Source of the DNA: Candidatus Tectomicrobia bacterium
GTDB lineage: Bacteria; UBA8248
DNA length: 64,000 nt
Direction: 5' to 3'
NCBI GenBank assembly: GCA_016192135.1
Contig: JACPUR010000013.1
Span: 124,001-188,000 of the forward strand
The translations under genes and the position numbers were made by a program. This document shows positions 6,556 through 50,941 of this stretch, piece after piece. The notes below the pieces were generated by a model. It did no database searches. It was not told the DNA's origin and saw only the letters and a program-made list of their open reading frames with translations. Position 1 is the first letter of the stretch; each line of letters opens with the position of its first letter.

Positions 6556-7233
6556 TTAACCCCGGCTCCTCCCCCTCAGCCTCTTCAGCACCTCCTCCGT
6601 CGTGAGGACATGGCAGAAGACCTGGTCCATCACGGCCAGGGCCATGTCGTGGAAATCCTGCCGAAGCGATGCGCACGCGTCCGAGGCAAGGATTACCCCG
6701 TAACCCCGGTCGTAGGCGTCACGGACGGTGGTCTCTACGCAATAGTTCGTGTGAACGCCGCAGCAAATCAGGCTCCGGATGCCCATGTAGCGGAGCATCT
6801 GGTCGATCTGGGTCGAAGTGAACGCACTGGTCGAGCTTTTGGTGAGGACGATTTCGTCCGGCCGGCGGGCAAGCTCCTCGAGAATTTCGATGTCGCGGGA
6901 ATCCGGCGGCGCGTGGAAGCCCTTCTCCCGGTAGCTGGGGCTCAGGTCCCGGCCGTCCCGCGTCAGAGAGCCGATGCGGGTGTAGATGATTTCGAGCCCT
7001 TCGGCTCGGCAAGCGTCGAGGAGTTTCCGGGCGTTCGTGACGACGCCCGGGAGCTGACTCACGAAATACGCGCAGACATCCCCCTTCCCCTCGCGGCGCA
7101 TCCGCCCGTAGATGCCGTGGTCGGGGCTGGCGTCGAGATACTGGAGATCGATGAGCAAAAGGGCGGTTTCGGCGGGATCGAGCCTGACCTCGCTCATCGG
7201 AGGAAAGCGGTTTTTGGATTCCCGAAAGTCCAT
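6556..7233 (-). CDS. isochorismatase-family cysteine hydrolase (RutB-like)
   Basis: A 225-residue cysteine hydrolase. The catalytic triad expected of the family is complete: D29 in LLLIDLQ, K132 in VLTKSS and C165 in HTNYCVE, with the usual cis-peptide region GVHTN before the Cys. Members include ureidoacrylate amidohydrolase RutB, N-carbamoylsarcosine amidase and nicotinamidase. The ATG at 7233 sits behind GGAG; the open frame upstream is not supported. It lies between an alpha/beta hydrolase gene (47 bp upstream) and the RidA gene (102 bp downstream) on the same strand. The trio suggests stepwise amide or carbamoyl hydrolysis; the substrate is not shown by sequence. Confidence 0.87.
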   Translation of the reverse strand: MDFRESKNRFPPMSEVRLDPAETALLLIDLQYLDASPDHGIYGRMRREGKGDVCAYFVSQLPGVVTNARKLLDACRAEGLEIIYTRIGSLTRDGRDLSPSYREKGFHAPPDSRDIEILEELARRPDEIVLTKSSTSAFTSTQIDQMLRYMGIRSLICCGVHTNYCVETTVRDAYDRGYGVILASDACASLRQDFHDMALAVMDQVFCHVLTTEEVLKRLRGRSRG

Positions 7234-7280
7234 GGGATGAGCTCCTTCAAGCGGAAAGCGCGATGGGGTGGAGGCCGCCG

Positions 7281-8093
7281 TCATTTCGGGGCGTCTCCGG
7301 CCCGGTCCGCCAGCTCCTCCAGAGCGGCAACGACCCGGTCGGGTGTCTCCACTGGCAGCATGTGCCCGGCCCCCTGGATCATCTCCAGCGCCGAATTCCG
7401 CAACTTCCCGTGCAGGGCGGCCATCGCGTCGGGGGCGACCAGCTTGTCCTCCGTCCCCCCGATGACCGTGCAGGGGCACTCGATTTCGCCCAGCCAAGGC
7501 GTCATGTCCTCGCGCCGCCGCATGGCGTCGTTGAGCAGGGCGACGCTGGCCGGGTCCTGGGAGGCGAAGTTCTGGAACGTTTCTTCGACGATGCGAGGGT
7601 TCGCCGCCGCGAAGCCGGGAGAGAACAGCCGCTTGACGTAATCCCGTGCCATGGGCGAGGTCCCCTCCTTGAGGACCAGGCGGTTCTGCTCCAGCCGCTC
7701 GGCTTGCTTCTCCGGGCTGTCGGCCGAGGCCCGCGTCCCGACGAAGCCGGCGGCGCTCACCTTACCAGGATGCCGGCGCAGCAGTTGAAGGAGTACGTAT
7801 CCGCCCATCGAGAAGCCGGCCGCGGCCGCCGCCCGGACGCCCAGTGCATCGAGGAGAGCGGCGGCGTCATCCGCCAGCTGCGCCATTGTGATGGGGGAGC
7901 CGGGATCGGGATGCCTCGACCCGCCCATCCCCCTCAGATCGGGGATGAGCAGCCGGTATCTCTCCTTCAGACTCTCCGCCGGGGGCCGCCAGACCGTGTG
8001 ATCGCGGGCGAAGCCGTGCAGCAGGAGCAGGGGCGGCCCGCTCCCCTGCTCCTCGAAGGCGATGTCCATTCCATTGGCGCGCACCGTTCTCAA
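7281..8093 (-). CDS. alpha/beta hydrolase (RutD-like)
   Basis: A 270-residue alpha/beta hydrolase. Oxyanion-hole HGF at residues 26-28, nucleophile S95 in GFSMGG, acid D216 in GGTEDKLV and H244 in GAGHMLPVE make a full catalytic triad. I place the start at TTG 8093, behind GGAGG with an 8-base spacer, which gives the usual short N-terminal strand; the frame is open further to 8288 without a ribosome site. First gene of the minus-strand trio ending in RidA and divergent from the HyuA/HyuB pair. Possible roles: ester, lactone or carbamate hydrolysis, as for RutD, or 3-oxoadipate enol-lactonase-like; the family is too broad to decide. Confidence 0.85.
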   Translation of the reverse strand: MRTVRANGMDIAFEEQGSGPPLLLLHGFARDHTVWRPPAESLKERYRLLIPDLRGMGGSRHPDPGSPITMAQLADDAAALLDALGVRAAAAAGFSMGGYVLLQLLRRHPGKVSAAGFVGTRASADSPEKQAERLEQNRLVLKEGTSPMARDYVKRLFSPGFAAANPRIVEETFQNFASQDPASVALLNDAMRRREDMTPWLGEIECPCTVIGGTEDKLVAPDAMAALHGKLRNSALEMIQGAGHMLPVETPDRVVAALEELADRAGDAPK

Positions 8094-8281
8094 CCGAGCA
8101 TCCTCCCGGCCGGAATTGCGCTCCGGCTCCACTCCATGGCGGCGCTTCACCGCCCGCGGGAAAAAGAGGCCGCCTCGCACAGATCGGGCCTTCCTCTCCC
8201 CAGACGCGATCCCAAGCGTGCGGGGGCGGATATTACCCTCAAACTCGCGAAATATCACTCGCTCCAGGCCCTCCGGTAGCC

Positions 8282-8310
8282 GAGACATCGCCCGCCGATC
8301 GCGTTATGCT
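8282..8310 (+). promoter_or_regulatory. candidate sigma70 promoter for the hyuA-like gene
   Basis: GAGACA (8282-8287) and TATGCT (8305-8310) with a 17-bp spacer. Transcription would start near 8317, leaving a leader of about 28 nt before ATG 8345. Hexamers match consensus at about four of six positions each; by-eye call. Confidence 0.4.
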
Positions 8311-8344
8311 GGCGTCATCATCCGCGTTCCACAGGAGAACCCGC

Positions 8345-10423
8345 ATGTTCAACGTCGGGGTGGACATCGGCGGCACCTTCACCGATGTGGCCGTGGTCCG
8401 GGAGGGCGAGCGAACCATACTCGGGAAGGCACCAACCACGCCGGAAGATTTCCTCGTGGGCGTGATAGACGCGCTCGAGGATGCGGCCCGCCAGATGGGC
8501 CTCTCCCTGGGCGCCTTGTTGAGCGAGGCCCGGCTCCTCGCCCACGGCACCACCATCACCTCGAACGTGCTCTGGACCCGCTCGGGGCCGCCCGTGGGTC
8601 TCCTCGCCACGCGGGGATTCGCGGACCAGCTCCTCATCATGCGCGGCATCGGGCGGGTGGCGGGGCTTTCCCTCGCCGAGCGGCGGCACTACCGCGCCAC
8701 GGACAAGCCCGAGCCCCTCGTCCCGCGCAAGCGCATCCGCGAGCTGGCCGAGCGGGTGGATTCCACGGGGGCGGCGCTCGTGCCCCTGGACGAGGCCGAG
8801 GCGCGCGAGCGGATCCGGGACCTCGTCGAGCGGGAGGGCGTCGAGGCGCTCGCCGTGGGCCTCCTGTGGTCCTTCCGCAATCCCGCGCACGAGCGCCGAG
8901 TGGCGGCTCTAGCGGAACGGGAGTTCCCGGGCTTGCGGGTGAGCCTCTCCTCTGAAGTGTCGGGCCGGCTGGGGGAATACGAGCGCACGGCCACGGCGGT
9001 GCTCAACGCCTACGTGGGCGGGGCCATGGAAGGCTATCTCGAACGCCTCACCGGACGTCTGAGAGAGGAGGGCCTCCGGCAGCTTCCCCTCGTCGTCCAA
9101 TCGAACGGAGGCCTCACTCCGGCGGGGGAGGTAATCCCCGTCCGCACCATCGAGAGCGGACCCGCCGCGGGGGTGGTAGGGGCGGCGCGCTTGGCGGAGG
9201 AGCTGGGCCGCCCCAACCTCATCGCCACCGATGTGGGCGGCACCACTTTCAAGGTCGCCCTCATCCAGGAGGGCCGCTGGGAGCTCGCAGCCGAGACTGT
9301 GCTCACCCAGTACCACGTGCACGTCCCGATGGTGGATCTGGTGTCGATCGGGGCGGGCGGGGGCTCCATCGCCTGGGAGGACGAGGGACGCCTGCGCGTG
9401 GGTCCGCGCTCGGCGGGGGCGGTGCCGGGTCCCGCCTGCTACGGGACGGGAGGCTTGGAGCCCACCGTGACGGACGCCGATCTCCTGCTCGGGACGCTCA
9501 ATCCGCGGAATTTCCTGGGCGGCCGAATCAAGCTCGACCCCGAGGCCGCGCGCGCGGCTTTCGCCCGGGGTGTGGCCCCCCGCTTCTTCGACGGAGACTC
9601 CATTCAGGCGGCGGCGGGGGTACGCGCGATCATCGACGCCCAAATGGCCGATCTCATCCGCCGGGAGACGCTCGAACGCGGCCGCGATCCGGGGGATTTC
9701 GCCCTGATCGCTTATGGCGGGGCGGGCCCTGTACACGCCCACGCCTACGCAGCCGAGGCGGGCATCTTCGAGATCATCGTGCCCTACCAGGCCACAGTGC
9801 TGAGCGCCTATGGCGCGGCGGCGGGCGGGATGCGCTACACGGTGGAGCGGTCCCTCACGGTGCGCCTTCCGGGCGGGGCCGGGGCCGCCGCGGAGGTCTT
9901 CGCCGACCTCGAGGCCGAGGGGTCGCGCCGCCTCGCCCGCGCTGGGGTGGGCGAGGGGAGCGGGCGCTTTGAGCGGTGGGCGGCGATGCGGTGGCGGCGC
10001 CAAGTGCACAGCCTGGCGGTGCCCTTCCCGCCCGGCCCCGTGACCGAGGAATCCCTGGCCAGGGCGCGGGCGGATTTCGCCGCCGAGTACGCCTCCCGCT
10101 ACGGAGAGGGCTCCGCCTACACCGAGGCGGGGGTGGAGATCGCCCGCTTCTGGATCAACGCGCTGGGACCCGCCATGCCCGCCGCCCCGGCCTCCCCGCC
10201 CGCCCCGAAGAAGGCCGCCGTCCCGGCCGGAAGGCGCCCGGTCCACTGGGGCGGGGGCTTTGTCGAGACGGCCATCTATGATGGCCCCCGCTTGCCGGAG
10301 GGGGCCATCATAGATGGCCCCGCCGTGATCGAGCATCCGGGAACGGCCATTGCCCTTCCCCTCGGCGCCCGCGCGGTCGTGGACTCGGCGGGGCACACTC
10401 ACATCCGGCTGGAGGCGCGATGA
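8345..10423 (+). CDS. hydantoinase/oxoprolinase family protein, A-type (ATPase) subunit
   Basis: A 692-residue HyuA-type subunit. The N-terminal ASKHA phosphate-binding motif GVDIGGTFTDVAV starts at residue 4; GTTITSN near residue 77 and a second glycine-rich TDVGGTTFK near residue 297 complete the nucleotide site. Family members (5-oxoprolinase, N-methylhydantoinase A, acetone and acetophenone carboxylase subunits) use ATP to activate a substrate carbonyl. ACAGGAGAAC precedes the ATG. It overlaps the HyuB-type gene by four bases (ATGA), so the two are translationally coupled and surely act as one enzyme. Because the partner has a carboxylase-like zinc ribbon, I favour an ATP-dependent carboxylase over a hydantoinase, as inference. 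Confidence 0.92.
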   Translation: MFNVGVDIGGTFTDVAVVREGERTILGKAPTTPEDFLVGVIDALEDAARQMGLSLGALLSEARLLAHGTTITSNVLWTRSGPPVGLLATRGFADQLLIMRGIGRVAGLSLAERRHYRATDKPEPLVPRKRIRELAERVDSTGAALVPLDEAEARERIRDLVEREGVEALAVGLLWSFRNPAHERRVAALAEREFPGLRVSLSSEVSGRLGEYERTATAVLNAYVGGAMEGYLERLTGRLREEGLRQLPLVVQSNGGLTPAGEVIPVRTIESGPAAGVVGAARLAEELGRPNLIATDVGGTTFKVALIQEGRWELAAETVLTQYHVHVPMVDLVSIGAGGGSIAWEDEGRLRVGPRSAGAVPGPACYGTGGLEPTVTDADLLLGTLNPRNFLGGRIKLDPEAARAAFARGVAPRFFDGDSIQAAAGVRAIIDAQMADLIRRETLERGRDPGDFALIAYGGAGPVHAHAYAAEAGIFEIIVPYQATVLSAYGAAAGGMRYTVERSLTVRLPGGAGAAAEVFADLEAEGSRRLARAGVGEGSGRFERWAAMRWRRQVHSLAVPFPPGPVTEESLARARADFAAEYASRYGEGSAYTEAGVEIARFWINALGPAMPAAPASPPAPKKAAVPAGRRPVHWGGGFVETAIYDGPRLPEGAIIDGPAVIEHPGTAIALPLGARAVVDSAGHTHIRLEAR

Positions 10424-12573
10424 ACCCCGTCCAGTTCGAGGTCATCTGGCACCGCATCCTTCAGCTCGCCGACGAGATGGGCATTCACTACCTGCGCTGC
10501 TCGGGCAGCCAGACGGTGGTGACCGGGAACGACGGCGCGACGGCGGTCATGCTCCCCGACACGAGCCTGGTGGCCATCGGCCCTTATATCGCCACCCAGT
10601 CGAACGTCCTCCCCCTCATCGTGCAGAGCGTCCAGCGGATGTGCGCGGAGAACCCGGGCATCGGCGAGGGCGACGTCTTCATCTGCAACGACCCCTACTG
10701 CGGGGCGATCCACCATGCTGACGTGGCGGTGGTGGCCCCGGTCTTCGCCGAGGGGAAGTTAATCGCCTGGCTGGGCGTGAGCGGCCACCAGCTCGACATC
10801 GGCGGCATGGAGGCGGGAGGCTTCGCCATCCACGCGGTGGACACGCACCAGGAGGGCCTCCGCATCCCGCCCGTCAAGATCGTCGAGCGGGGGAGGCTTC
10901 GCGAGGACATCTTCCGCTGGGTAATCAACCAGGTGCGCGACCCCCTGGTGGGTCTCGACGTGAAGGCCCAGCTCGCGGCCATCGCGGTGGGGGAGCGGGG
11001 GCTCAAGGCGCTGGCGCGGCGCTACGGGGAGGCGGTCGGGGAGGTGATGCGCGGCAGCATCGACTACGTGGAGCGGCGCTTCCGCGAGCGGCTCAGGAGC
11101 CTGCCTGACGGGGAGTGGAAGGAAGTCCAGTTCATCGATCACGACGGCCACGCGCCCGATATCTACCGCATCGAGCTCAAGCTGACCAAGAAAGGGGACC
11201 GGCTCATCTTCGACTACACCGGCACCAGCCGGAACGCCCGGGGGCTCATCAACAGCGCCTATTCGGGGCTCCTGGCCGGGGTGCTGTGCGGCACCTACAT
11301 CCAGCTCGCTTACGACCTCCCCTGGAACAAGGGGATCCACAACTGCATCGAGATCGTCACGGAGAGCGGGACGGTGAACAACTGCGCCTATCCCGCGCCC
11401 TGCTCGATGGCCACCATCTCGGCGGTCATCGTCACCATCGATACGGTCTTCGGCGCCATCGGGCGGATGCTCCTTGCCAGTGAAGAGCTGCGCGGGGAGG
11501 CCATGGCGATGTGGACGGGCTCCTCGATGGGCCCCATCGTGGCCGGCACCTCCCAGCACGGCCATCCCTTCGTCTACACCGAGATGAGCCACTTCGCCGG
11601 AGGCGGCGGGGCGCGCACCGGCAGGGACGGGGTGGACACCGGCGGGATTGTCTTCAACACCACCCCCAACGTCTCGAACGTGGAGGAGATCGAGAACGAT
11701 TTTCCCCTGCTCTACCTCTTCCGCCGCCACCTCTCGGATTCGGGCGGGCCGGGCAAGTTCCGGGGCGGCATGTCGGCCGAGCTCGCCTACGTGGCCTGGC
11801 GGGCGCCCGAGGGCCGGCTCGAGGGAAGCTTCGCGGGGACGGGGGGCGAGATGCCCAACGCCATTGGCCTCTCGGGGGGCCTCCCCGGCGCGGCCATCCG
11901 TCTCATCGGAATTTCCGAAAGCGGGGTGCACGACGCCCTGGAGCGGGGGGAGATGCCGCCCTCGCGCCTGGAGGACATCCCGGGCCGCCGGAAGGCTCTC
12001 CCGGTCAAGCACCCCCGGCGCGCCTTCGGGCGCAACGAGGTCTGGTACCACAACTGGCAAGGCGCGGCGGGCTACGGCGACCCCATCGAACGCTCCCCGG
12101 AGGCGGTGCGCCGCGACCTGGAGGGCGGGGCCGTCTCCCCCGCCTGCGCCCGGGACGTCTACGGCATCGTCCTCACCCCGGACGGGAGGGTGGACAAGGC
12201 CGGCACGCGGGCCCAGCGGGAGGAGCTGCGGCGCCTTCGGCTGGGCGGCCGCGCTCCGCGCCCGATGGGCTTCGAGCCTCCCGTCGGGGCGCGCCGCATC
12301 GGCGAGGCGCTCTGGCTGGCCGGGGGCCGGACGCTCTGCGGGCGCTGCGGGGAGGCGCTCGGGACGGCGGCCGAGCCCCTCAAGGCGGCGCGGGTGATTT
12401 CCGGACCGACCGAAGAGGCGGGCCCGGTGCGGGGGGAGATGTACCAGGCGCTCTACGGGCGGCGGCTTTTCTCGCTGCGGCGCGAAGTGTGCCCGGGCTG
12501 CGGGGTCCAGCACGAGGCCCGGGTGATAATGGAGGGGGCCCCGCTGCCTTACGTCAGGCTCGAGGAGGATTAA
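10420..12573 (+). CDS. hydantoinase B/oxoprolinase family protein with C-terminal acetone-carboxylase-gamma-like zinc ribbon
   Basis: A 717-residue HyuB-type subunit. The first ~600 residues follow the family (FEVIWHRILQLADEMG near the start, RDPLVGLDVKAQLAA, GNKGIHN-like region, GPGKFRGGMSAEL near residue 450). The last ~85 residues add something standard HyuB lacks: two CxxC pairs, C640/C643 and C691/C694, in an arrangement (CGRCGEALG ... CPGCG) that resembles the small gamma subunit of acetone carboxylase and its relatives. In acetone or acetophenone carboxylases that subunit is separate and binds zinc. Starts within the HyuA stop (ATGA overlap). Its 3' end overlaps the convergent ABC ATPase gene by 20 bp. 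Confidence 0.9.
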   Translation: MNPVQFEVIWHRILQLADEMGIHYLRCSGSQTVVTGNDGATAVMLPDTSLVAIGPYIATQSNVLPLIVQSVQRMCAENPGIGEGDVFICNDPYCGAIHHADVAVVAPVFAEGKLIAWLGVSGHQLDIGGMEAGGFAIHAVDTHQEGLRIPPVKIVERGRLREDIFRWVINQVRDPLVGLDVKAQLAAIAVGERGLKALARRYGEAVGEVMRGSIDYVERRFRERLRSLPDGEWKEVQFIDHDGHAPDIYRIELKLTKKGDRLIFDYTGTSRNARGLINSAYSGLLAGVLCGTYIQLAYDLPWNKGIHNCIEIVTESGTVNNCAYPAPCSMATISAVIVTIDTVFGAIGRMLLASEELRGEAMAMWTGSSMGPIVAGTSQHGHPFVYTEMSHFAGGGGARTGRDGVDTGGIVFNTTPNVSNVEEIENDFPLLYLFRRHLSDSGGPGKFRGGMSAELAYVAWRAPEGRLEGSFAGTGGEMPNAIGLSGGLPGAAIRLIGISESGVHDALERGEMPPSRLEDIPGRRKALPVKHPRRAFGRNEVWYHNWQGAAGYGDPIERSPEAVRRDLEGGAVSPACARDVYGIVLTPDGRVDKAGTRAQREELRRLRLGGRAPRPMGFEPPVGARRIGEALWLAGGRTLCGRCGEALGTAAEPLKAARVISGPTEEAGPVRGEMYQALYGRRLFSLRREVCPGCGVQHEARVIMEGAPLPYVRLEED

Positions 12574-13697: not shown

Positions 13698-15413
13698 CTA
13701 GCGGCTCCTCAGACCGGCCCGCGAAAGCATCCGCTGGGAGGCGGTGGTGAGCGCTAAGCCACCCGCGATTACGAGGGTCGAGAGGGCGGCCATGGGGGGG
13801 AAGAGGTTCTCCTCCGAGAGCTCGTAGATGGACACCGCGATCACCTCGTTCCCCCCCGAGTAGAGCAAGATCGAAGAGCTGAGCTCGCGAACCATGATCA
13901 CGAAGACGGTGATTGCCCCCGCCACCAGGCCAGCGCGGAGGAGGGGGAGGTCCACGTCGAACAGCGCCCGGACGGAGGAGGCGCCGACCGTCATGGCCGC
14001 TTCGGAGAGATCCTTCCCGATCTGACGGAAGGCCCCGCGCGCCAGCATGAAGACGAGGGGCGTCCCCTTCACCGTGTAGGCGATGAGGAGAATCCAGACG
14101 GTCCCGTAGAGATGCGCCGGGGCACCGCCAAACGCGAAGATGAGCCCGGCCGCGAGGGCGATCCCCGGGAAGCTGAACGAGAGGAGCACCAGGAGGGTCA
14201 GGAATTCCCGCCCGGGAAGGTCCGTCCTCGCCACGATCCAGGCCAGGACGAGCGCCACCACGGCCGAGAGCATGGCGGCAGCGGCGGCGAGGAAGAAGCT
14301 GTTCTTAAGCCCCGCCCGGGTGAGATCGGAGTCGAACAGGACGAACCAGAAGTTCTGGAGGCTCAGGTTCGCGGCCGTCAGGGGCATGCCGAATACCTTG
14401 ACGAGCGAGATGGCGAGCAGGGTGACGAAGGGAAGGACGATGGTCACGCCGAGCACGAGCAGAGCGTAGCCCCCCAGGAGGTAGCGCCACCTCCCCAGAT
14501 CCAGCCGGTTCGGATGGGAGGCCGCCCCGGCGATGGTCACGAACTGCCGGCGCCGAAGCATGCGGCGCTGGAGGCCCAGAACGGCGATGGTCACCAGGAT
14601 CATGGGCACCGCGACGGCGGCGGCGAGCTCGAACTTGGGCGGGGCGGAGAAGAGGGTGTAGATGCGGGTGGCCATCGTATAGAAGTGGAAGGGCATCCCG
14701 ATCATGGCCGGCGCTCCGAAGATCGCGATGGAATCCAGGAAGATGAGAATGCACCCGGCGAGTATCCCCGGCAGCACCAGGGGCAGCGTGGTGGAGAGGA
14801 CGGTGCGCAGCTTGGAGGCCCCTAGCATGTCCGAGGCCTCCTCCAGCGCCGGATCCATGTTCTCGAGGGCCGTCACCGTGCTGAAGTAGACGAAGGGATA
14901 GAGGTGGGCCGAGAGCACGAAAACGAGCCCTTGGATGGAAAAGATGTTCATGGGGCTCGACTCGAGCCCGAGGAGGTCCCGGAGAAATACATTGATGTAC
15001 CCCGCGCGGGGCCCGAGAAGGATGATCCAGGCCACCGCGCTCAGGAAGGAGGGGGTGGTGAAGGAAACCACCACCATGAGTGGAACGAATCGACGGAAGG
15101 GCATGTTCGTCCGCGCCACGCCCCAGGCCAGCGGCACCCCCATCACCAGGGAGATGCCGACGCAGCCGGCTCCCACCCAGACCGAGTTCACCAGGGAGCT
15201 CAGGATCTCCCGGTCGGTGAACACCTGGATATGGTTGGCGAGAGTGAAACTTCCGCCCGGCGACTGGAAGCTCCGGGCGAAGAGGATGCCCAAGGGGTAC
15301 ACGACGAGCGCGGCGAGCACAGCCGCCGCGGCGAGAAAGAGTGCAAGCCGCCCCTTCTCCCCGCGAAGGGCCCCAAGCCATGAATGCCGTGCAGCCATGC
15401 CTTCGCCGGACAT
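13698..15413 (-). CDS. iron-type ABC transporter permease, two fused membrane domains
   Basis: A 571-residue inner-membrane permease with about twelve hydrophobic segments, formed by two BPD_transp_1 domains in one chain as in FbpB/SfuB. Each half carries the cytoplasmic EAA loop that contacts the ATPase: EASDMLGASKLRTVL in the first half and EAAMTVGASSVRALF in the second. ATG 15413 and an internal ATG 15398 are both possible starts. It begins 16 bp after the binding protein stop and is followed one base later by the ATPase. The fused layout is typical for ferric iron importers but also occurs in 2-aminoethylphosphonate and thiamine systems. Confidence 0.92.
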   Translation of the reverse strand: MSGEGMAARHSWLGALRGEKGRLALFLAAAAVLAALVVYPLGILFARSFQSPGGSFTLANHIQVFTDREILSSLVNSVWVGAGCVGISLVMGVPLAWGVARTNMPFRRFVPLMVVVSFTTPSFLSAVAWIILLGPRAGYINVFLRDLLGLESSPMNIFSIQGLVFVLSAHLYPFVYFSTVTALENMDPALEEASDMLGASKLRTVLSTTLPLVLPGILAGCILIFLDSIAIFGAPAMIGMPFHFYTMATRIYTLFSAPPKFELAAAVAVPMILVTIAVLGLQRRMLRRRQFVTIAGAASHPNRLDLGRWRYLLGGYALLVLGVTIVLPFVTLLAISLVKVFGMPLTAANLSLQNFWFVLFDSDLTRAGLKNSFFLAAAAAMLSAVVALVLAWIVARTDLPGREFLTLLVLLSFSFPGIALAAGLIFAFGGAPAHLYGTVWILLIAYTVKGTPLVFMLARGAFRQIGKDLSEAAMTVGASSVRALFDVDLPLLRAGLVAGAITVFVIMVRELSSSILLYSGGNEVIAVSIYELSEENLFPPMAALSTLVIAGGLALTTASQRMLSRAGLRSR

Positions 15414-37296: not shown

Positions 37297-37325
37297 ATAC
37301 TAAAGGCTCACGCGTCGAGCGTCAA
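37297..37325 (-). promoter_or_regulatory. candidate sigma70 promoter for the SsuCAB-like operon
   Basis: On the minus strand TTGACG (37320-37325) and TAGTAT (37297-37302) with a 17-bp spacer. The start would be near 37290. On the opposite strand the same bases give TATACT (37296-37301), a possible -10 for the divergent cyclase genes but without a good -35. Confidence 0.5.
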
Positions 37326-37352
37326 GTTTTTCCCGGCGGAGGAAGCCCAGCG

Positions 37353-38102
37353 ATGGCGCGGATCGTCGATCTCTCTCATCCCATCTTCACCGGGATGCCC
37401 GCGTGGGTGGAGATGGGGGGCACCTTCGGCTTGGCCAAGACCGTCGTTTCCGCCTGGGACGACTATGAGACGAGTGCCTACCTGCGCACCCACGGGCGGG
37501 AGCGCGAGCTCTTCAAGACCTGCTTCATCGTGATGAGCGACAACGGCGGCACGCATGTGGACGCGACCTATCACTTCGACCCCCTCGGCGAGAAGATCTC
37601 CGATGTGCCCCTCGGGCGCTTCTACGGCGATGCCGTCCTGCTGGACCTCACCCACCTGCGGCCCATCCGTTATGACCCTTACGAGCGCAAGGTGCTGGAG
37701 ACGGAATGGATCACTCCGGAGGAGCTCGACCGCGGCCTCGCCAGGGCCGGCACCGAGATCCGCCCGGACGACATCGTGCTCCTGCGCACCGGGGCGGAGC
37801 GCCTCTGGCCCCGGAAGGAGTATCACCACTCGTTCGTGCCCATGCGCCTGGAGGCCTTGGACTGGCTCATCGACCGGGGCGTCAAGCTCTTCGGGATGGA
37901 TCAGATCACCATCGACATCATCCCCGGCTATGACCTCCCCCACATGCACATGCGGAAGCGCTACTCGATGCACATGGAGAACTTGCGGAACCTGGGCGCG
38001 ATCGGGCGCCCGCGCTTCCGTTTCGCGGGCTTCCCGATCAAGTGGGCGGGCGGGCCCTGCTCCCCCATCCGGGCGGTGGCCATCGTGGAGGATGAAGCGT
38101 GA
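37353..38102 (+). CDS. cyclase family protein (kynurenine formamidase-like), variant metal site
   Basis: A 249-residue member of the cyclase/KynB superfamily of metal-dependent hydrolases. The signature region reads SDNGGTHVDATYHF (residues 62-75). In kynurenine formamidase the pattern is HxGTHxDxPxH: here H68, D70 and H74 are kept, but the first His is N64 and the Pro is T72. CGGAGGAAG precedes the ATG. It overlaps the next cyclase gene by four bases (GTGA), so two paralogues are made together. Likely amide or lactone hydrolysis of a cyclic or formylated compound; the changed ligand might alter metal choice or make it a partner subunit. Divergent from the SsuC-like operon. Confidence 0.87.
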   Translation: MARIVDLSHPIFTGMPAWVEMGGTFGLAKTVVSAWDDYETSAYLRTHGRERELFKTCFIVMSDNGGTHVDATYHFDPLGEKISDVPLGRFYGDAVLLDLTHLRPIRYDPYERKVLETEWITPEELDRGLARAGTEIRPDDIVLLRTGAERLWPRKEYHHSFVPMRLEALDWLIDRGVKLFGMDQITIDIIPGYDLPHMHMRKRYSMHMENLRNLGAIGRPRFRFAGFPIKWAGGPCSPIRAVAIVEDEA

Positions 38103-38761
38103 GCCGCCTCTTCGACCTCTCCCACGAGGTGCCCCACGAGCCAACGTGGGCCGCCAGCCACACCTTCGGCCGCGGCGCGGTGCTGGCCTACAGCGCCCTC
38201 GCCGAAACCAAGCTCGCCCAGACCTCGCTCCTGGCCTTCAGCGACCACGTCTCCACCCACATCGACGCGCCCGCCCATTTCCACCCGGAAGGGAAAACCA
38301 TCGACCGGATGCCTCCCGAGCTCTTCGTGGAGGCTCCGGCCGTCTGGCTGGATTGCTCGGGCGGCGGGGCGGGAAAACCAGTCGGGCCGGACGAGCTGGC
38401 GCGCGCCGCCGAGGAGCATTTCAAGCGGGGGGATGCCGTCCTCATCTACACGGGGTGCTCGCGCGAATGGGGGAAGCCCGGCTACCGCGCTTCGCTGCGG
38501 CCCTTGGAGCCCGCGGCGGCCGAGTGGCTGCTCGAAAGAGGCGTGAGACTCTTCGGGGTGGACGGGCCGGAGATCGACGACGACCCCATTCGCTGGCCCG
38601 CGCACATGCTCATGCGGCGGCACGAGTTCTACGTGATCGAGAACCTCGCCCTCTGGCCGGCCGTGGCGGAACTGCCCCGGCGCTTCCGGCTCATCGCCAT
38701 GCCGCTGACCATCCAGGGAGGGACGGCCGCCCCAGCGCGGGTGGTGGCTGTGGCGGATTGA
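38099..38761 (+). CDS. cyclase family protein (kynurenine formamidase-like)
   Basis: A 220-residue paralogue of the preceding cyclase. Here the metal motif is canonical: SDHVSTHIDAPAHF at residues 48-61 supplies H50, H54, D56 and H60. Starts with GTG inside the stop of the first gene (GTGA overlap), so translation is coupled. The family includes arylformamidase, isatin hydrolase and other manganese or zinc enzymes. Together the pair may form a heteromer; homologues commonly are homodimers or homotetramers. The substrate is perhaps linked to the importer divergently encoded next door. Confidence 0.87.
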   Translation: MSRLFDLSHEVPHEPTWAASHTFGRGAVLAYSALAETKLAQTSLLAFSDHVSTHIDAPAHFHPEGKTIDRMPPELFVEAPAVWLDCSGGGAGKPVGPDELARAAEEHFKRGDAVLIYTGCSREWGKPGYRASLRPLEPAAAEWLLERGVRLFGVDGPEIDDDPIRWPAHMLMRRHEFYVIENLALWPAVAELPRRFRLIAMPLTIQGGTAAPARVVAVAD

Positions 38762-42879: not shown

Positions 42880-45800
42880 TTATTTGCAGGGGAGGAAGCG
42901 AACCACGGTTTCCATTTCTTCCAAGACTTGAGCCAGCTTGGCGAGAGCTTCATCCACGTCCGCTTCGGAGGTGAACGGGGAGAGGCTGAGGCGGACCGCG
43001 CAGTGGGCTTCCTCCTCGGAACGTCCCATGGCGAGGAGAACATGCGTGGGCTCGGGAGAGCCGGACTTGCAGGCCGAGCCCGAGGAAATGGCCACGCCGC
43101 GCTGGTCGAGGGCGATGACGAGCGACTCACCCCGCAGCCCGGGCAGCGTCATGTTGAGGGTGTTCGGGAGCCGGTCCACGGGATGGCCGTTCCGCCGGGC
43201 GCCGGGGACGATCCGGCGGATGCCCGCCTCGAGCCTGTCCCTGAGGCGGCGAATCTCCTCCGCCCGGCCGAGCCGGTCCGGGGCCAGCTCGGCCGCCTTC
43301 CCCATTCCCGCGATCTGGGGCACGTTCTCCGTCCCCGCCCGCAGTCCGCTCTCCTGCTGCCCCCCGTGGATGAGAGGCTCGATCTCCACCTCCTTGCGGA
43401 CATACAGGACGCCCGCCCCCTTGGGGCCGTGGAACTTGTGGGCGGCGAGGCTCAGCAGATCCACCCCCAGCGCCTCGACATCCACCGGAATCTTGCCCGC
43501 GGCCTGCACCGCGTCCGTGTGGAAGAGCGCCCCGCGCTCGTGCGCGGCGGCGCACAACTCCCGGATGGGGAGGATCGTGCCCACCTCGTTGTTGGCCATC
43601 ATCACGGATACGAGGGTCGTCCCCTCCCGGAGGGCGCTCCGCAGCCGATCCGAATCCAGGCTCCCGGTCCCGTCCACATCGAGATAGGTGACCTCGAAAC
43701 CCATCCGTTCCAGAAAGCGGAAGGCCCCCAGGACGGAAGGATGCTCGATGGCGGTGGTGACGACATGGCGCCCCTGGTGCCAGCGGGAGAAGGCGGCCCC
43801 CTTGATGGCCAGGTTGTTCGACTCCGAGCCTCCCCCCGTGAAGATGATCCGCCGGGGATTCGCCCCGATAAGCGCGCCGACCTGGCGCCGGGCATGGGCG
43901 ATCGCCTCGCGCGCCTGGCGCCCCGCGAGATGCAGGCTCGACGGGTTGCCGCAGCCGTCTCCCAGGTAGGGGAGCATAGTCTCTTTCACGGCATCATCCA
44001 CTCGCGTGGTGGCGTTGTTGTCCAGGTAGATACGGCGGGCGGGGGCGGCCGGGACGGCAGCCGGCGTCATCGCGGAGGCATGATCGGCCTTCCCGTTCCG
44101 GCTCCCGCGCACGGCCTTCCCCCGCGCCTTGACGACCTCGCACAGGAGGGCCTTGTAGACCGGAAACCCGGATATTGCGTCATGGCGGGCGAGCGAGGTG
44201 AGCTCGTTCACGTTGGACGCCCGCCAGGCCTTGGGGCCGACCGGGCCGCCGCCCCCGAAGTTGCACTCGACCGCCCCCCGCGCGATGTCCTCGGTCACCC
44301 GCGCCCGGAAGCGCACCGCGCCCCTGCAGGTCCTCACCTCGACGGGGTCTCCCGTGCGGATGCCGCGCGGAGCGGCATCCTCGGGATGAATCTCGACCAC
44401 CGGGCGCGGGCTCTCCCGCACCAGGCCGGGGACGCCGTGGTGCTGGGAGCGGAAGTCCGTCTGGAGGCGGGCGCCCGAATTGAAAATGAGGGGAAATTTC
44501 CCGGCCAGGGCCGGATCTCCGATGGGTCCCTCGGCGGGTTCGGTGTACTTGGGCAGGGGCTCGTGGCCGTGCTCTTCCAGGATCGTGGAATGGATCTCGA
44601 ATTTACCGGTCGGCGTGTCGAACCCCGGCCGGCCGTCGGGGCGGAGGCCCCCCTTGCGCCACTTCTGGTATTCCAGCATCGGCGACGGGATGCGCACGGT
44701 GCCTCCCGCCTCGCGCACCTGCTCCAGGGTGAAGCCCGAGCCCTGAAGGACGAAGCGCAGGAGCGCCTCTTCGCTCTGGGGGTATTGGCCGCCATAGCCA
44801 AGGCGCCGGGCCAGCTCGGCCATGATGAGGTAGTCGTTCCGCGCCTCTCCCACGGGCTCGATGAGACGCTCCCGGAGCCGGAAGATGGGCCCGTAGACCA
44901 TGTACGAATCGATCTCGAACATGGTGGTGGCGGGGAGGACGATGTCGGCGTAGGCGGCGTCGGCGGTGAGCTGGCGGTCGACGGTGACGAGAAAGTCCAG
45001 CCGGGAGAGGGTCTCCCGCCAAAGGCGGGTCTCGGGCCATGAGGTGAGGAGAGAGGCTCCATGCACGATGAGCGCCCGGATGCGGTAGGGATCGCCTTTC
45101 AGGACCGAATCCACCAGAGCGCCCGCGTGGAATTCCCCCCGGTAGCGCGTGTAGACGGGGAAGCGGTGCCGGTCTGCCGCGCGGGCGGGCGCAGGGTTCT
45201 CGACGTTGCAGGAGCGGTTGACGGGGAAATGGCTGTCCTGCATGGCGAGGACCAGCCCCCCCGGCACGTCGAGCTGCCCGGCCAAGGCCCACGCCGTGAG
45301 GACGGCCCGGATGGCCTGGACGCCGCTGTCCGAGTACTCGAGGCCAGTGTACATGACGGGGGCACACCCGTTGGCGCCGCATATTCTCCGGGCGAGCCGG
45401 CGGATGGTTTCGGCGGGCACCCCGGTGACCGGCTCCACGGCTTCGGGCTTGAAGTGCCACACGTACTCCCGCAACTCCGGGAACCCATGCGTCCAGTCGC
45501 GGGCGAAACCTTCGTCGTGAATCTCCTCCTCGATCATCACCTGGATGAGGCTCAGCGCCAGCGCCCCGTCCGTGCCCGGGCGGATCGGGATCCAGCGGGC
45601 CCCCGTGCTGACGGCGGTCTCGCTGCGGCGGGGGTCGATGACGACGACCTCGGCGCCCCGCTTGGCCGCGGCGAGAATGCGGTGCATGTCCAGGGGCGGC
45701 GAATCGGTGGCCGGATTGGCCCCCCAGACGACCACCATCTCCGCGTGCTCGATATCGGTGAACATGTTGATGAGCATCCGGCCCATTGTGACGTGGGGGG

Positions 45801-46260
45801 CGATGACGGCGAAGGAAACGTAGCACAGCGCCCCCACTCCCATGGTGTTGGGCGAGCCGTAGCGGAACAACACGCTGGAGGCGGAAGAGACGGCGACGCC
45901 CTTCGGCTGGAAAAGATCGCAGAGCGAAAGTTCGAAGGCGCCCCGGCCGGTATAGATGGCCGCGGCTTCGGGGCCGGACTCCTCCCGGATCCGAAGGAGC
46001 CGCTCCACGATCTCCTCGTAGGCTTCATCCCAGGAAATCCGCTCGAAGCGGTTCGTGCCTTTGGAGCCGATCCGCCTCATGGGATGCCGGAGGCGGTGTC
46101 GCGAGTGGACGATCGCGGGGGCATGCCTGCCGCGGAGGCAGAGCATTCCGAGGGGATGGGTGGCGTCCGGGCGGATATCCGCCAGCTTGCCTCCCCGTAC
46201 CCCCGCTTCCACCCAGCAACCGGCCGGGCAGATCCCGCAAATCCCCCGCTTCCACTTCAT
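42880..46260 (-). CDS. molybdopterin oxidoreductase fused to cysteine desulfurase
   Basis: An 1126-residue two-part enzyme in one uninterrupted frame. Residues 1-~705 are a DMSO-reductase-family catalytic subunit: [4Fe-4S] ligands C8, C11, C15 and C41 (CGICPAGC ... LCLRG), likely Mo-ligand C146 (GALCY), the WGANPATD, DPRRSE and DIVLPATTMFE segments, and a C-terminal beta-barrel with ARVTEDIARGAV. A ~35-residue Ala/Pro/Lys-rich linker leads to residues 744-1126, a full-length group I cysteine desulfurase (IscS/NifS): IYLDNNATT start, PLP lysine K942 (AAHKFHGPKG) and catalytic C1064 (SGSACKSG). GGAC-type ribosome site before ATG 46260; GTG 46308 is an alternative. An internal ATG at 44070 lacks a ribosome site. 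The domain order suggests direct sulfur supply to the Mo cofactor or Fe-S cluster (inference). No electron-transfer subunit or FdhD adjoins it. Confidence 0.9.
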   Translation of the reverse strand: MKWKRGICGICPAGCWVEAGVRGGKLADIRPDATHPLGMLCLRGRHAPAIVHSRHRLRHPMRRIGSKGTNRFERISWDEAYEEIVERLLRIREESGPEAAAIYTGRGAFELSLCDLFQPKGVAVSSASSVLFRYGSPNTMGVGALCYVSFAVIAPHVTMGRMLINMFTDIEHAEMVVVWGANPATDSPPLDMHRILAAAKRGAEVVVIDPRRSETAVSTGARWIPIRPGTDGALALSLIQVMIEEEIHDEGFARDWTHGFPELREYVWHFKPEAVEPVTGVPAETIRRLARRICGANGCAPVMYTGLEYSDSGVQAIRAVLTAWALAGQLDVPGGLVLAMQDSHFPVNRSCNVENPAPARAADRHRFPVYTRYRGEFHAGALVDSVLKGDPYRIRALIVHGASLLTSWPETRLWRETLSRLDFLVTVDRQLTADAAYADIVLPATTMFEIDSYMVYGPIFRLRERLIEPVGEARNDYLIMAELARRLGYGGQYPQSEEALLRFVLQGSGFTLEQVREAGGTVRIPSPMLEYQKWRKGGLRPDGRPGFDTPTGKFEIHSTILEEHGHEPLPKYTEPAEGPIGDPALAGKFPLIFNSGARLQTDFRSQHHGVPGLVRESPRPVVEIHPEDAAPRGIRTGDPVEVRTCRGAVRFRARVTEDIARGAVECNFGGGGPVGPKAWRASNVNELTSLARHDAISGFPVYKALLCEVVKARGKAVRGSRNGKADHASAMTPAAVPAAPARRIYLDNNATTRVDDAVKETMLPYLGDGCGNPSSLHLAGRQAREAIAHARRQVGALIGANPRRIIFTGGGSESNNLAIKGAAFSRWHQGRHVVTTAIEHPSVLGAFRFLERMGFEVTYLDVDGTGSLDSDRLRSALREGTTLVSVMMANNEVGTILPIRELCAAAHERGALFHTDAVQAAGKIPVDVEALGVDLLSLAAHKFHGPKGAGVLYVRKEVEIEPLIHGGQQESGLRAGTENVPQIAGMGKAAELAPDRLGRAEEIRRLRDRLEAGIRRIVPGARRNGHPVDRLPNTLNMTLPGLRGESLVIALDQRGVAISSGSACKSGSPEPTHVLLAMGRSEEEAHCAVRLSLSPFTSEADVDEALAKLAQVLEEMETVVRFLPCK

Positions 46261-46348
46261 CCCGCGTGTCCTGTCATACCGTAAGGTCCCAAGTCCCGCA
46301 GGTTTCACCCCGAAGAATCACGGGCACACAGATCGCAGGGAAAGCTGG

Positions 46349-46376
46349 AAGGCCGCGGGTAGAACCCCGCGGCCTT
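46349..46376 (-). terminator. terminator-like hairpin after the CocE gene
   Basis: Perfect 11-bp stem AAGGCCGCGGG (46349-46359) / CCCGCGGCCTT (46366-46376) with a six-base loop, 48 bp beyond the CocE stop on the minus strand. The trailing bases contain only a weak T run. Confidence 0.65.
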
Positions 46377-46423
46377 CCTCCGCGCAACCTCCTGATTCCC
46401 GTCCTTGTCCGATCGTCCGGCGC

Positions 46424-48169
46424 CTACTTCGCCGGGATAATCGGCAGCAGAAGATGCGCCGGCCGCCCCGGCCCCGTATGAAGCGTCACCTTCCGCCCGA
46501 ACACCCGCAGCGGGCGATCCTGCGGATGGATGTGCCGGAACGGCCCCACGCCGTAGTAGACGCGCTCGCTCGCCTGCTTGGGCGGATTCTCGAAGCCGGG
46601 ATAGACGTAATCCCGCCCCCGGACGCTCAGTCCCACCCGGTGGCCCTTCGGCACCGCGATTGAGGTCGGCCAGATTTCCACGTCGAGCTCGTATACCTCG
46701 CCCGCCTTGAGCGGCTGCTTCTCGTCGTGCGTATGATAGGGCCTGTAAGGCAGGGATTTCCTCGGATCCAGCTTTCGGTGCGAAGCCCTCAGCCAGCCGT
46801 GCCCCACGGGCGTGTGCGGGTCGTTCGAGCCCTGGAATGTGATCTCCCGCATCTCGGGGTCGAACACACGCAGCACGAGGAAGAGGTCCGCGTCCTCCGT
46901 TTCCGACGAGATGAACAGCTTGGCCGCGGCGGGCCCGGTGATCTCCGTCTCCTTCTCGAAAGGCGCCGTCAGGAAAGTGAGACCCTTCCCCACGGCCTCG
47001 TATTCCGCCGCTCTCTCCTTCTCATGAGGCTCCGTGGAGAGAGTGGCGTTCCCGGGATGGAGATAGAATTTCGTCCACCGCGTCCGGGCGAGGGGCCACT
47101 CGCTTTCGGCGCGCTCGACGAACTTTTCGCCCGGATGGCGGACGTGAAGAGCAATCTTGGGCTGGGTGGTCCAGCAAGTATCCTCACCCTTGAGGAAGTG
47201 GCCGAAGAAGCGCTTCTGCAGGGCGAGGCCGTAGTCGGTGTAGAAGTGGGTGAAATGGTCGAGCCCGTGCATCTCGAGCCACTTCTGCTCCGATGCGGCG
47301 TGCATGAATCCCTCGATGTTTCCCCGCGGGTGCAGTCCCACGCCTCCCCAGTTTCCGGCCGAGAGCAAGGGCACGTTGATCTTGGAGAAGTCCGGCATCC
47401 GGGCCTTCCAGTATTCGTCGATCAGCGGGTGATCGAGGAGGTCCTGCCCGTAATCGCAGCGGTTGGCGTTGAGTTCCTCGTCCGAGAGGGTCTCGGGCCC
47501 CGAGCTCCACTCGCCGTTGATCCGGCTGCGGAAATCGCGCTCCCCCCGCCCGTGCTGGCGGCGCACGACGGTGTCCTTGTACCAAGTGTCGGCGAAGATG
47601 CAATAAATCCCGCCGTGGTGGCTGAGGTCGCGGTACCAGTCCGCGGCACCCTCCCAGACGCACATGGCCGCGAGGTGGGGGGGCTGGAGAGAGGCGACGC
47701 ACCACTGGTTCATGGCATAGTAGGAAATACCGTTCAGCCCCACCTTTCCGCTGCACCAGGGCTGCCCGGCCGCCCACTCGATGCAATCGTAGAAGTCCTT
47801 CATCTCCCGGGGGGAAAACACTTCCATGAAGCCTGGGGAACGGCCCGCGCCGCGCGAATCTACCCGGACGCAGGCATACCCGTCGGGCACCCACTTCTCC
47901 GGGTCCGCCACCTCCCAGTTCGCGTACTTGCCCGAAGAACCCGCCAGCGACTCGGGATACTTCTCGGTCAACACCTTCCACTGGGCGGGATAACCGTCCA
48001 TGAGGTGCAGCCACTTGGCATAGGGCCCATAGGTCATGATGGCGGGGTACTTGCCCTCGGCGACGGGGCGGTAGACGTCGCACCGCAGGACGACGCCGTC
48101 ATCCATCTCGATCGGGACGTCCCAGTCGATTCGCATCCCATTTCGCACTTCACTCTTGAAAGCCTCCAT
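46424..48169 (-). CDS. CocE/NonD family hydrolase
   Basis: A 581-residue hydrolase of the CocE/NonD and Xaa-Pro dipeptidyl-peptidase class. The nucleophile is S149 (NGISYY, the GxSxx elbow); the alpha/beta core precedes a jelly-roll C-terminal domain (VYELDVEIWPTSIAVPKGHRVGL). Early RVDSRGAGRSPG is a family signature. Members hydrolyse esters (cocaine esterase), glutaryl-7-ACA or Pro-peptides. No signal peptide. ATG 48169 follows GGGAGGGAG. It lies 132 bp downstream of the TRAP permease on the same strand and is followed by a hairpin terminator, so it may be co-transcribed with the TRAP genes and act on the imported compound. Confidence 0.9.
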   Translation of the reverse strand: MEAFKSEVRNGMRIDWDVPIEMDDGVVLRCDVYRPVAEGKYPAIMTYGPYAKWLHLMDGYPAQWKVLTEKYPESLAGSSGKYANWEVADPEKWVPDGYACVRVDSRGAGRSPGFMEVFSPREMKDFYDCIEWAAGQPWCSGKVGLNGISYYAMNQWCVASLQPPHLAAMCVWEGAADWYRDLSHHGGIYCIFADTWYKDTVVRRQHGRGERDFRSRINGEWSSGPETLSDEELNANRCDYGQDLLDHPLIDEYWKARMPDFSKINVPLLSAGNWGGVGLHPRGNIEGFMHAASEQKWLEMHGLDHFTHFYTDYGLALQKRFFGHFLKGEDTCWTTQPKIALHVRHPGEKFVERAESEWPLARTRWTKFYLHPGNATLSTEPHEKERAAEYEAVGKGLTFLTAPFEKETEITGPAAAKLFISSETEDADLFLVLRVFDPEMREITFQGSNDPHTPVGHGWLRASHRKLDPRKSLPYRPYHTHDEKQPLKAGEVYELDVEIWPTSIAVPKGHRVGLSVRGRDYVYPGFENPPKQASERVYYGVGPFRHIHPQDRPLRVFGRKVTLHTGPGRPAHLLLPIIPAK

Positions 48170-48301
48170 GCTCCCTCCCGTCTGGCGCTTCGTGCCATTC
48201 GTTGCGCACCACAAATCCCGCTCGGGGAAATAAGCGTGCTTTCGCGTGCAACTGCATCAAGCTTTTCTCACAGCCCCCCGCGTCGGCGCCTTGCTTCGGC
48301 C

Positions 48302-50941
48302 TCAGGCCGGCGGCGAAGCGGGGGCTGAGGAGGATTCAGCGGGGATTGGCAGGGGGCCCCCGGCCTCCGCCTGCCCCCGCGCGCGGACGTTCTGAACCAC
48401 GATTCCGGCGATCATCAAGAGCGTTCCCAATGAGAACGTCCACCACACATCGGAGAAAAGAAGGAACGCGGCCAGCAGGAAGTTCGCGCGCTCCAAGACC
48501 TTAAGCCTGCACCGCAGGAATCCCTCGAATCCCGCTGCGGTGCAATAGAAGCCCATGAAGGTGGTCACCCATACCACCAGGATGTGCGGCCAGGAGGCAT
48601 CCTTGTTCATGAGAATCGGGGTGTACGCCATGAGGAAGGGCACGATGTAGAGCGCCCAAGCCAGGCGCACCGATGCGAACCCCGTCCGCATGGGGTCCGC
48701 CCCGGCGATGCCCGCCGCGATGAAGGCACCCAGCGCGAAGGGGGGTGTGAGCGGAGCGGTAACGGTGAACCACAGGGTCAGGAGATGCGCGTTGAGGAGC
48801 GGCACCCCCAACTTGAGCAGCGCGGGCACGGCCAGGACGGAGAGGAGGATGTAGGCGGCCGAGGCCGTCATGCCCATCCCCATCACGTAGGCGGCCGCCC
48901 CGCACAGGAGGATGACCATCGGCAGCTCGGTCCACTGCCAGCCGAACAGATCGACGAAGGTCTGGGCATATCCCAGGACGATCGAGGGAAACTTGAGGCC
49001 CAGGCCGGGAAGCGAGATGCCGGCCAGCATGACCCCCACCACCCCCGCCGTTACCCCGATGATGAGCGAGTTCAGGGCGCCTTTTTCCAGGCCATCCAGC
49101 ACCCGGGGGGAGGAAAGAACCAGGATCGCCGTGACGCCCCAGAAAAGGGATTGGCCGGCCTCGGCGCCCGCCAGCAGGAGGACGGCGGGCACGGCGGTGC
49201 CCGCCGCCAGCATCCAGTTCTCCCGCCAGAAAGTTCCGCGGGGGGCCGCCACCGCCTCGGCGACGATGCGCTGGTATTCCGCCTCTATCTTTTCAGCGGA
49301 ATGGTGGTCCCGGAGCATGGCCGCCTTTACCTCCTCGGCCCTGACCCGGGCCCAGTCCACGCCGGTGCCCCATGGGGGCACGCCCAGGGCGCGCGCGACG
49401 AGAGGAGGAAGGCCGATGATGCGTGTATCCTCCCGGAAGAAGCCGAGGAAGATGGAGAGCATGATGGCCCAAAGGGCCGCATCGAAGGGGGAGCGCCCGA
49501 TGACGAGGCGGATGACAAGCACCAAGACGGGGAGGAGGAGATAGCCCTCCTTCCGCATCACTTCGCCGAGGCGGGGCAGCTCTTCCTTCGGAATGCCGTG
49601 GATGCCCCATAGGCCGGCGCGGTGATGGACCGACATGTAGCACTGGTAGTAGTACATCACGGCGGGCATGAACGCGACGAGGGCGATGTAGTTGTAGTCG
49701 ATCTCGGTGAAGGCGGCCATGAGGAAGGCCGCCGAGCCCATGACCGGGGGCATCAGGATTCCCCCGGTCGAGGCGACCGCCTCCACCGCGGCCGCGAAGT
49801 GTGGCATGAAGCCGGATCGCTTCATCATCGGGATGGTGAAGGTGCCCGTGATCACGATGTTGGGCGCTCCGCTCCCGCAGATCATCCCCACGAGCCCGCT
49901 CGATACGACGGCCGCCTTGGCCGGGCCGCCGCGCAGATGGCCCACCAGGGCGAACGAGAGCTTCACGAAGACATCCCCCACCTTCGTCATCTCCAGGAAC
50001 ACCCCGAAGATGATGAAGAGGAAGACGTAGCTCGCATAGACCCCCGCGACCACGCCGAAGATACCCTCCGAGCCGAAGAGGAAATAGGAGAGCTCATTCC
50101 AGGTGAAGCCGGCGTGATGCAGGCGGCCGGAAATCGCGTTGCCGTGGACCGCGTAAACACAGAACAGAATACCGAGGGCGGGCAGGACCCAGCCGAGGAG
50201 CCGACGGCACATCTCGATGGAGATGGCGGCCGCGAGGAAGCCCATGATCACGTCGTGCCAGACGATGATTCCCGCCCGCTCGCCCCGGTCCGCGAAGTTC
50301 ACGATGTAGTTGAGGACGATGCCCAAGGTGATGACGAACAGCAGGACGTCCACCACCGAGGGTCGGTGCTTCGGGGACCGCTCCCTCGCGGGATAGTAGA
50401 AGAAGGTCAGTATCGCCGTGAAGAAGATGTACAGCGTGAGGTAATACTGGAATGCGTAGAGCTGCAGGGTGGGAAACTGGAAGGTTCCCCATATCCAGGA
50501 GAGATTCTTGGAGAGCCCGGTCGGAAGGACCGGGCCGAGGAAATAGACCAGCGGCTCGCCGAAGCCGAGCAGGAGATCCACCCGGGCGCTGTTGGCCGCG
50601 CCGTAGAGGAAATACCCGCTGAAAACGACCGCCGAGAGCCAAATCGCCACGCGGGGGAAAAGGCATACCCCCGTCGTGTAGAAGAAGAGGACCCCCGAGA
50701 CCGACAAGCTCAGCAGGGGCAGCCGGATCTCCTGCCAAGCCCATTCGTAGTCAATGGGCATGAACAGGGTGAACGTCCTCCCTCCGATGAACAGTTGATA
50801 AATGACAAAAAGAACGGTCAGGACCGCCCAGAGGGGGAATAGTTCCTTCTGAAGGCCTGGCGCCATGATCCGGCGGGGTTTCATTTCTGGGGATATGAGG
50901 AATTTCAAGCAGCTGAGCAGGTTTCTGATGCCCGGGCTCAT
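48302..50941 (-). CDS. TRAP transporter fused permease subunit (DctQM-type, TAXI class)
   Basis: An 879-residue integral membrane protein with about 18-20 hydrophobic segments. The N-terminal ~190 residues correspond to the small DctQ-type subunit and the rest to the large DctM-type subunit, fused as is usual for TAXI-type TRAP systems. The GxGAPNIVITG and GILMPPVMGSAAF segments are typical of the M domain. Na+- or H+-coupled uptake of organic acids is the known family role. ATG 50941 or GTG 50947 both fit the GAGGAAGG site. It lies 88 bp after the binding protein stop, with a hairpin plus T run in between that may lower its expression relative to the binding protein. Confidence 0.92.
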   Translation of the reverse strand: MSPGIRNLLSCLKFLISPEMKPRRIMAPGLQKELFPLWAVLTVLFVIYQLFIGGRTFTLFMPIDYEWAWQEIRLPLLSLSVSGVLFFYTTGVCLFPRVAIWLSAVVFSGYFLYGAANSARVDLLLGFGEPLVYFLGPVLPTGLSKNLSWIWGTFQFPTLQLYAFQYYLTLYIFFTAILTFFYYPARERSPKHRPSVVDVLLFVITLGIVLNYIVNFADRGERAGIIVWHDVIMGFLAAAISIEMCRRLLGWVLPALGILFCVYAVHGNAISGRLHHAGFTWNELSYFLFGSEGIFGVVAGVYASYVFLFIIFGVFLEMTKVGDVFVKLSFALVGHLRGGPAKAAVVSSGLVGMICGSGAPNIVITGTFTIPMMKRSGFMPHFAAAVEAVASTGGILMPPVMGSAAFLMAAFTEIDYNYIALVAFMPAVMYYYQCYMSVHHRAGLWGIHGIPKEELPRLGEVMRKEGYLLLPVLVLVIRLVIGRSPFDAALWAIMLSIFLGFFREDTRIIGLPPLVARALGVPPWGTGVDWARVRAEEVKAAMLRDHHSAEKIEAEYQRIVAEAVAAPRGTFWRENWMLAAGTAVPAVLLLAGAEAGQSLFWGVTAILVLSSPRVLDGLEKGALNSLIIGVTAGVVGVMLAGISLPGLGLKFPSIVLGYAQTFVDLFGWQWTELPMVILLCGAAAYVMGMGMTASAAYILLSVLAVPALLKLGVPLLNAHLLTLWFTVTAPLTPPFALGAFIAAGIAGADPMRTGFASVRLAWALYIVPFLMAYTPILMNKDASWPHILVVWVTTFMGFYCTAAGFEGFLRCRLKVLERANFLLAAFLLFSDVWWTFSLGTLLMIAGIVVQNVRARGQAEAGGPLPIPAESSSAPASPPA

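Follow-up and report, generated by a model that had tools for sequence, protein, structure and literature searches.

The closest described system to the gene studied here is the metallopterin-dependent ergothioneine synthase (MES), in which a metallopterin module is fused to a cysteine desulfurase and whose product, formed from cysteine and trimethylhistidine without oxygen, is the antioxidant ergothioneine (Beliaeva & Seebeck 2022; PMC9516567). The enzyme of Caldithrix abyssi (CaMES) as well as AbMES, EaMES and hvMES are examples of it; MES of four organisms yielded ergothioneine in E. coli, and among Mo/W enzymes its discoverers called it the first known to catalyse C-S bond formation (PMC9516567). 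The metallopterin module of CaMES is related to acetylene hydratase, and C153 is its likely metal ligand, the C153S change abolishing activity. In the other half K952 binds PLP, the relay cysteines C1074 and C1135 are indispensable, and C1097 is not essential, having a two-fold effect (PMC9516567). When K952A and C153S variants were co-produced in one cell no complementation was obtained and, since the desulfurase-dead and the metal-site-dead variants fail to complement, the sulfur must stay within one chain (PMC9516567). Desulfurase activity of the C-terminal half, the residue requirements and obligatory intramolecular transfer have been shown for CaMES, as has the ability of its metal site to exchange sulfur reversibly, and it has been proposed that the imidazole attacks the sulfur of Mo(VI)=S and that a protein persulfide re-sulfurates the centre (PMC9516567).

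The window analysed in this work is a stretch of 64,000 nucleotides from a Candidatus Tectomicrobia bacterium. It contains at 42880..46260, on the minus strand, a gene that starts with an ATG at 46260 and runs for 1126 codons before its stop codon (42882-42880); a GTG upstream of this ATG would add 16 residues if used as start. All features of this gene given below lie on the same minus strand. The protein begins with a 4Fe-4S domain (residues 1-52, 46105..46260; Pfam Molybdop_Fe4S4, PF04879) bearing C8, C11, C15 and C41, followed by a molybdopterin domain (residues 56-485, 44806..46095; PF00384) and by a molybdopterin dinucleotide binding domain (residues 598-704, 44149..44469; Molydop_binding, PF01568). 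After a flexible linker (residues 715-740, 44041..44118), a NifS/IscS-type cysteine desulfurase domain occupies residues 741-1116 (42913..44040), in which the Aminotran_5 (PF00266) match extends from 744 to 1103 and TIGR03402 gives 483 bits, under its equivalog cut-off of 530.75. The last ten residues (1117-1126, ETVVRFLPCK, 42883..42912) form a tail that is common to the fused homologues.

Alignment of 46 fusions indicated which residues are kept. The predicted metal ligand C146, in the motif GVGALCYVSF (45823..45825), and the PLP lysine K942 (43435..43437) are invariant in 46 of 46, and the four Fe-S cysteines and the catalytic persulfide cysteine C1064 (43069..43071) are kept wherever a sequence reaches their positions. 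C1087 (43000..43002) is also a conserved cysteine, and the relay cysteine C1125 (42886-42888) was found in all 43 fusions reaching that position. A previous sequence-only reading of this DNA, which did not state the strand, had given the right coordinates and frame, and the landmarks that it listed (C8, C11, C15, C41, C146, K942 and C1064) are all where it placed them.

The fusion of a Mo/W enzyme and a desulfurase is real and is due neither to an assembly error, nor to chance, nor to a missing stop codon. At least 55 fused homologues from many phyla, full-length or nearly so, have the same domain order and a continuous frame on independent contigs, chromosome-level ones included, and because of this the probability that two genes were joined through an assembly error or a frameshift is negligible; nothing was found in favour of that explanation. 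Three MES homologues (L075, L076 and L078) display a broken or shifted frame, probably because their MAGs were misassembled there. When GTDB genomes were scanned for the same two-domain order, a search suggested by the sequence-only reading, about 57 loci were obtained, most of which cover query residues 1-1126 at 62-85% identity; the best homologues, from unrelated assemblies, cover the full query at 59-85% identity. The scan placed the fusion in Tectomicrobia, Gemmatimonadota, KSB1, Latescibacterota, Calditrichota, Neomarinimicrobiota and Acidobacteria, and it was also found in Actinomycetota, Planctomycetota, Chloroflexi, Gammaproteobacteria, cable bacteria, Bdellovibrionales and one archaeal MAG. 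As had been read from the window, where no stop interrupts it, the linker is a single open frame in nearly all fusion loci according to ORF checks. Its sequence and length differ among the 46 aligned fusions, it is predicted to be disordered in the window protein (AlphaFold2 pLDDT below 50 at residues 715-740), and its internal ATG (M732) is not kept even in the two congeneric proteins.

In a tree of desulfurase domains, 57 fused rows were split from 28 stand-alone rows with an SH-aLRT of 100. This topology is compatible with a single origin of the fusion followed by spread across phyla, within a limited sampling of stand-alone enzymes. In addition, the fusions carry the RFLPCK tail, which holds the relay cysteine, and the 24 stand-alone desulfurases compared lack it; in one of these 24 the tail position is taken by an unrelated cysteine. 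The main texts of two papers, on MopB evolution and on archaeal fusions, do not mention this two-module architecture. The claim of the sequence-only reading that no enzyme of this architecture had been characterised was mistaken: it had been, as MES, in 2022 (PMC9516567), and the window protein is a further example of the architecture.

The comparison with CaMES indicates that the window gene very probably encodes a MES, with a probability of about 0.92. A homologue of 1136 residues whose numbering is identical with that of CaMES (L140, G070:C86:96437-99817) was used in the alignments as a close stand-in for CaMES and not taken as CaMES itself; it has 60% identity and 77% similarity to the window protein over the full length. 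Through it, window C146, K942, C1064, C1087 and C1125 correspond to CaMES C153, K952, C1074, C1097 and C1135, and C8, C11, C15 and C41 align with C14, C17, C21 and C48. The window protein therefore resembles CaMES in its domain order, with the metallopterin module at the N-terminus and the desulfurase in frame at the C-terminus, in its length (1126 against 1136 residues), in its Fe-S cysteines, metal ligand, PLP lysine and relay cysteines, and in the presence of EgtD in the genome. It differs in its Tectomicrobia-like host, which has two COX1-family genes and an EgtD-SenA-SenB operon.

The AlphaFold2 model of the window protein (mean pLDDT 75, pTM 0.55) is poor between the modules and around the metal site, where pLDDT is about 45-60. 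No solved MES structure was found in the PDB. In structure comparison acetylene hydratase (PDB 2E7Z) is a top match of the N-terminal part of the model (TM-score 0.75 by target length); by sequence (230 bits) it is likewise the nearest solved relative of this part. It also has a single cysteine ligand and one 4Fe-4S cluster, but lacks a desulfurase domain, hydrates acetylene and shares 24% identity in the structural alignment. The C-terminal part is nearest to NifS/IscS/Nfs1. The group I desulfurases H. pylori NifS (5WT2), with about 44% identity to the window domain, and A. fulgidus IscS (4EB5) have the same fold, PLP lysine and mobile cysteine loop; however, they are separate Fe-S assembly proteins without the RFLPCK relay tail and outside the fused clade. 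Both this separate clade and the TIGR03402 score under cut-off set the window domain apart from stand-alone NifS/IscS.

These comparisons bear on the frame of formate dehydrogenase and FdhD in which the gene had been read earlier, and which gave way to acetylene hydratase as nearest solved N-terminal relative by both sequence and fold. In its strict form, considered here as a rival, the protein would be a self-maturing Mo/W oxidoreductase similar to formate dehydrogenase, whose desulfurase would install the sulfido ligand once, replacing IscS/FdhD. Desulfurase delivery of sulfur to Mo is established for other enzymes, the window protein has a cysteine ligand at the metal, and formate dehydrogenases are among its relatives. 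However, the score of 268.5 bits against the formate dehydrogenase alpha family TIGR01591 is far under the cut-off of 666.25, and in about 57 loci the fusion lacks a conserved electron-transfer subunit or comparable partner gene beside it; electron-transfer subunits, an FdhD-like chaperone and sulfur carriers do not recur around these loci. Furthermore, in CaMES sulfur exchange persists in the K952A variant, and turnover itself, beyond mere activation, depends on the desulfurase (PMC9516567). For these reasons a self-maturing oxidoreductase is considered highly improbable.

As a MES, the window protein would probably act as CaMES does, judging from homology and conservation. The C-terminal PLP desulfurase would take sulfur from L-cysteine to form a persulfide on C1064, from which it would be handed to C1125, in the flexible tail, and then to the Mo/W centre, a bis-MGD cofactor bound through C146 of the N-terminal module, to end on trimethylhistidine, so that sulfur would be consumed in each catalytic cycle. 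Both this order of steps and the use of the same substrate are predictions from sequence for the window protein. The proposal that persulfide is channelled to the enzyme's own partner module thus stood in outline, as supported by the CaMES genetics (PMC9516567), and failed as cofactor maturation, the sulfur ending in a small molecule; of the two guesses made from sequence, sulfur-substrate chemistry came closer than sulfuration of the cofactor.

Genomic context pointed in the same direction. EgtD makes trimethylhistidine, the substrate of MES. Gene clustering across about 57 fusion loci showed EgtD as the sole recurrent neighbour, adjacent to or near the fusion in 13 of them, and it was this recurrence that led to the identification as MES. 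The window genome (G000, 97% complete) contains one EgtD over the NCBIfam cut-off (TIGR03438, 387 against 290.9 bits) at 47592-48491 of its contig C4, and this gene is unlinked to the MES gene, which is on contig C13. EgtD-family matches are present in both congeners, and EgtD is over cut-off in 37 of 40 other genomes with MES, the remaining three being draft assemblies or MAGs. Within the class, MES was found in three of three genomes of the window genus and in none of 15 other genomes, seven of which have EgtD over cut-off, usually with an EgtB/SenA-type gene near it on the same contig. EgtD alone is no proof of serving MES, as SenA/SenB can use the same trimethylhistidine.

In the window genome EgtD forms a tight operon with SenA and SenB, identified by NCBIfam matches (contig C4:47529-50937, equal to L131:5530-8938, outside the window), in which SenA scores 535 bits against a cut-off of 420 and SenB 380 against 300. 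A second SenA (484 bits) is located at the end of contig C24. When SelD/SenC was sought in this genome, no SelD scored over its cut-off; a candidate of 83 bits was discarded because its ORF was read by eye from the sequence as ThiL-like. The operon is therefore best described as a predicted selenoneine pathway in which the selenium-activating step is missing. Profile searches detected no EgtB over cut-off either, and the two best sub-cut-off matches corresponded to SenA equivalogs. MES would then be the sole candidate for forming ergothioneine found in this genome, in a search that, besides MES, covered EgtB. The EanB and EgtB routes to ergothioneine, as well as SenA, also add sulfur or selenium to carbon 2 of trimethylhistidine, with folds unrelated to MES: EanB is a rhodanese, and EgtB and SenA are FGE-like iron enzymes needing O2.

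The same data were considered with respect to a MES-like sulfurase that would use the same chemistry, from desulfurase to Mo-sulfide to C-H sulfuration, on another heterocycle in this lineage. The identity of only about 60% to the homologue with CaMES numbering, the lack of linkage between the MES gene and EgtD, the separate use that SenA/SenB give to trimethylhistidine in the window genome, and the three of 40 MES genomes without EgtD over cut-off, although drafts or MAGs, would agree with this. Against it, EgtD occurs in all three MES-bearing genomes of the genus and in 37 of 40 others, the alignment of fusions shows 338 near-invariant positions across the family, and four diverse MES all make ergothioneine (PMC9516567). 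Another substrate is thus unlikely, and ergothioneine remains the expected product of the window enzyme.

The genes around the window gene say nothing about ergothioneine. On the same strand it is flanked by genes encoding an MBL-fold hydrolase, an amidohydrolase, an LVIVD protein, a CocE/S15-type hydrolase and a TAXI-type TRAP transporter, none of which was assigned to the ergothioneine pathway because they are not shared with the congeners, where the DNA upstream of MES does not match the window; the upstream gene in L022 resembles an aconitase on inspection by eye. Visual inspection also showed, in the interval from the CocE-like gene to MES, a G+C-rich inverted repeat (ggccgcggg...cccgcggcc, window 46330-46385), on which the terminator scan was silent. 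Elsewhere in the window, two overlapping tandem ORFs on the plus strand (37308-38761) resemble cyclase-family proteins, with a HxDxxxHF-type motif recognised by eye.

Although MES has been described as encoded exclusively in anaerobes (PMC9516567), the window genome does not fit this description by gene content, as it carries two COX1-family genes (466-502 bits). COX1-family matches of at least 300 bits, a bar chosen because PF00115 also takes in nitric oxide reductases, were found in 27 of 40 other MES genomes. In G029, G038 and G057 the oxidase gene is on contig C1 and the MES-bearing records are chromosome-level (CP070677, CP070666 and CP070787), which argues against mis-binning, yet these are MAGs. 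Gene content is no proof of aerobic growth, and the anaerobic status is a statement about the hosts that does not define MES. The discovery criterion of MES, genomes without another trimethylhistidine-sulfurising enzyme, was not a biochemical one (PMC9516567). EgtB over cut-off is present in five of 40 MES genomes, and the congener G001 carries a true EgtB. In a Deltaproteobacteria MAG (L058, JAJDAO010000021.1), EgtD (6895-7908), MES (7911-11432), with EgtD 3 bp upstream, and EgtB (13996-15399) lie on the same strand, and therefore oxygen-dependent and oxygen-independent sulfurisation enzymes can share one gene cluster. The function of this pairing of EgtB with MES may be oxygen-dependent switching. 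More generally, we slightly favour the view that MES is not confined to anaerobes and that in oxygen-respiring lineages it works on one trimethylhistidine pool beside O2-dependent enzymes, such as SenA/SenB for selenoneine in the window genome and EgtB for ergothioneine in others like L058, either as an oxygen-independent back-up or in a division between sulfur and selenium.

The presence of MES in a bacterium with oxygen-respiration genes and with a selenium version of the pathway is a mild surprise and, beyond what was known of MES, modestly extends its host range and the set of its pathway partners. Its assignment as a probable MES removes one candidate 'unknown' enzyme. The described host range is widened to about a dozen bacterial phyla and an archaeal MAG; many of these hosts carry oxygen-respiration genes, and in some MES lies beside an O2-dependent route, a distribution that bears on the anaerobic-niche argument for ergothioneine (PMC9516567).
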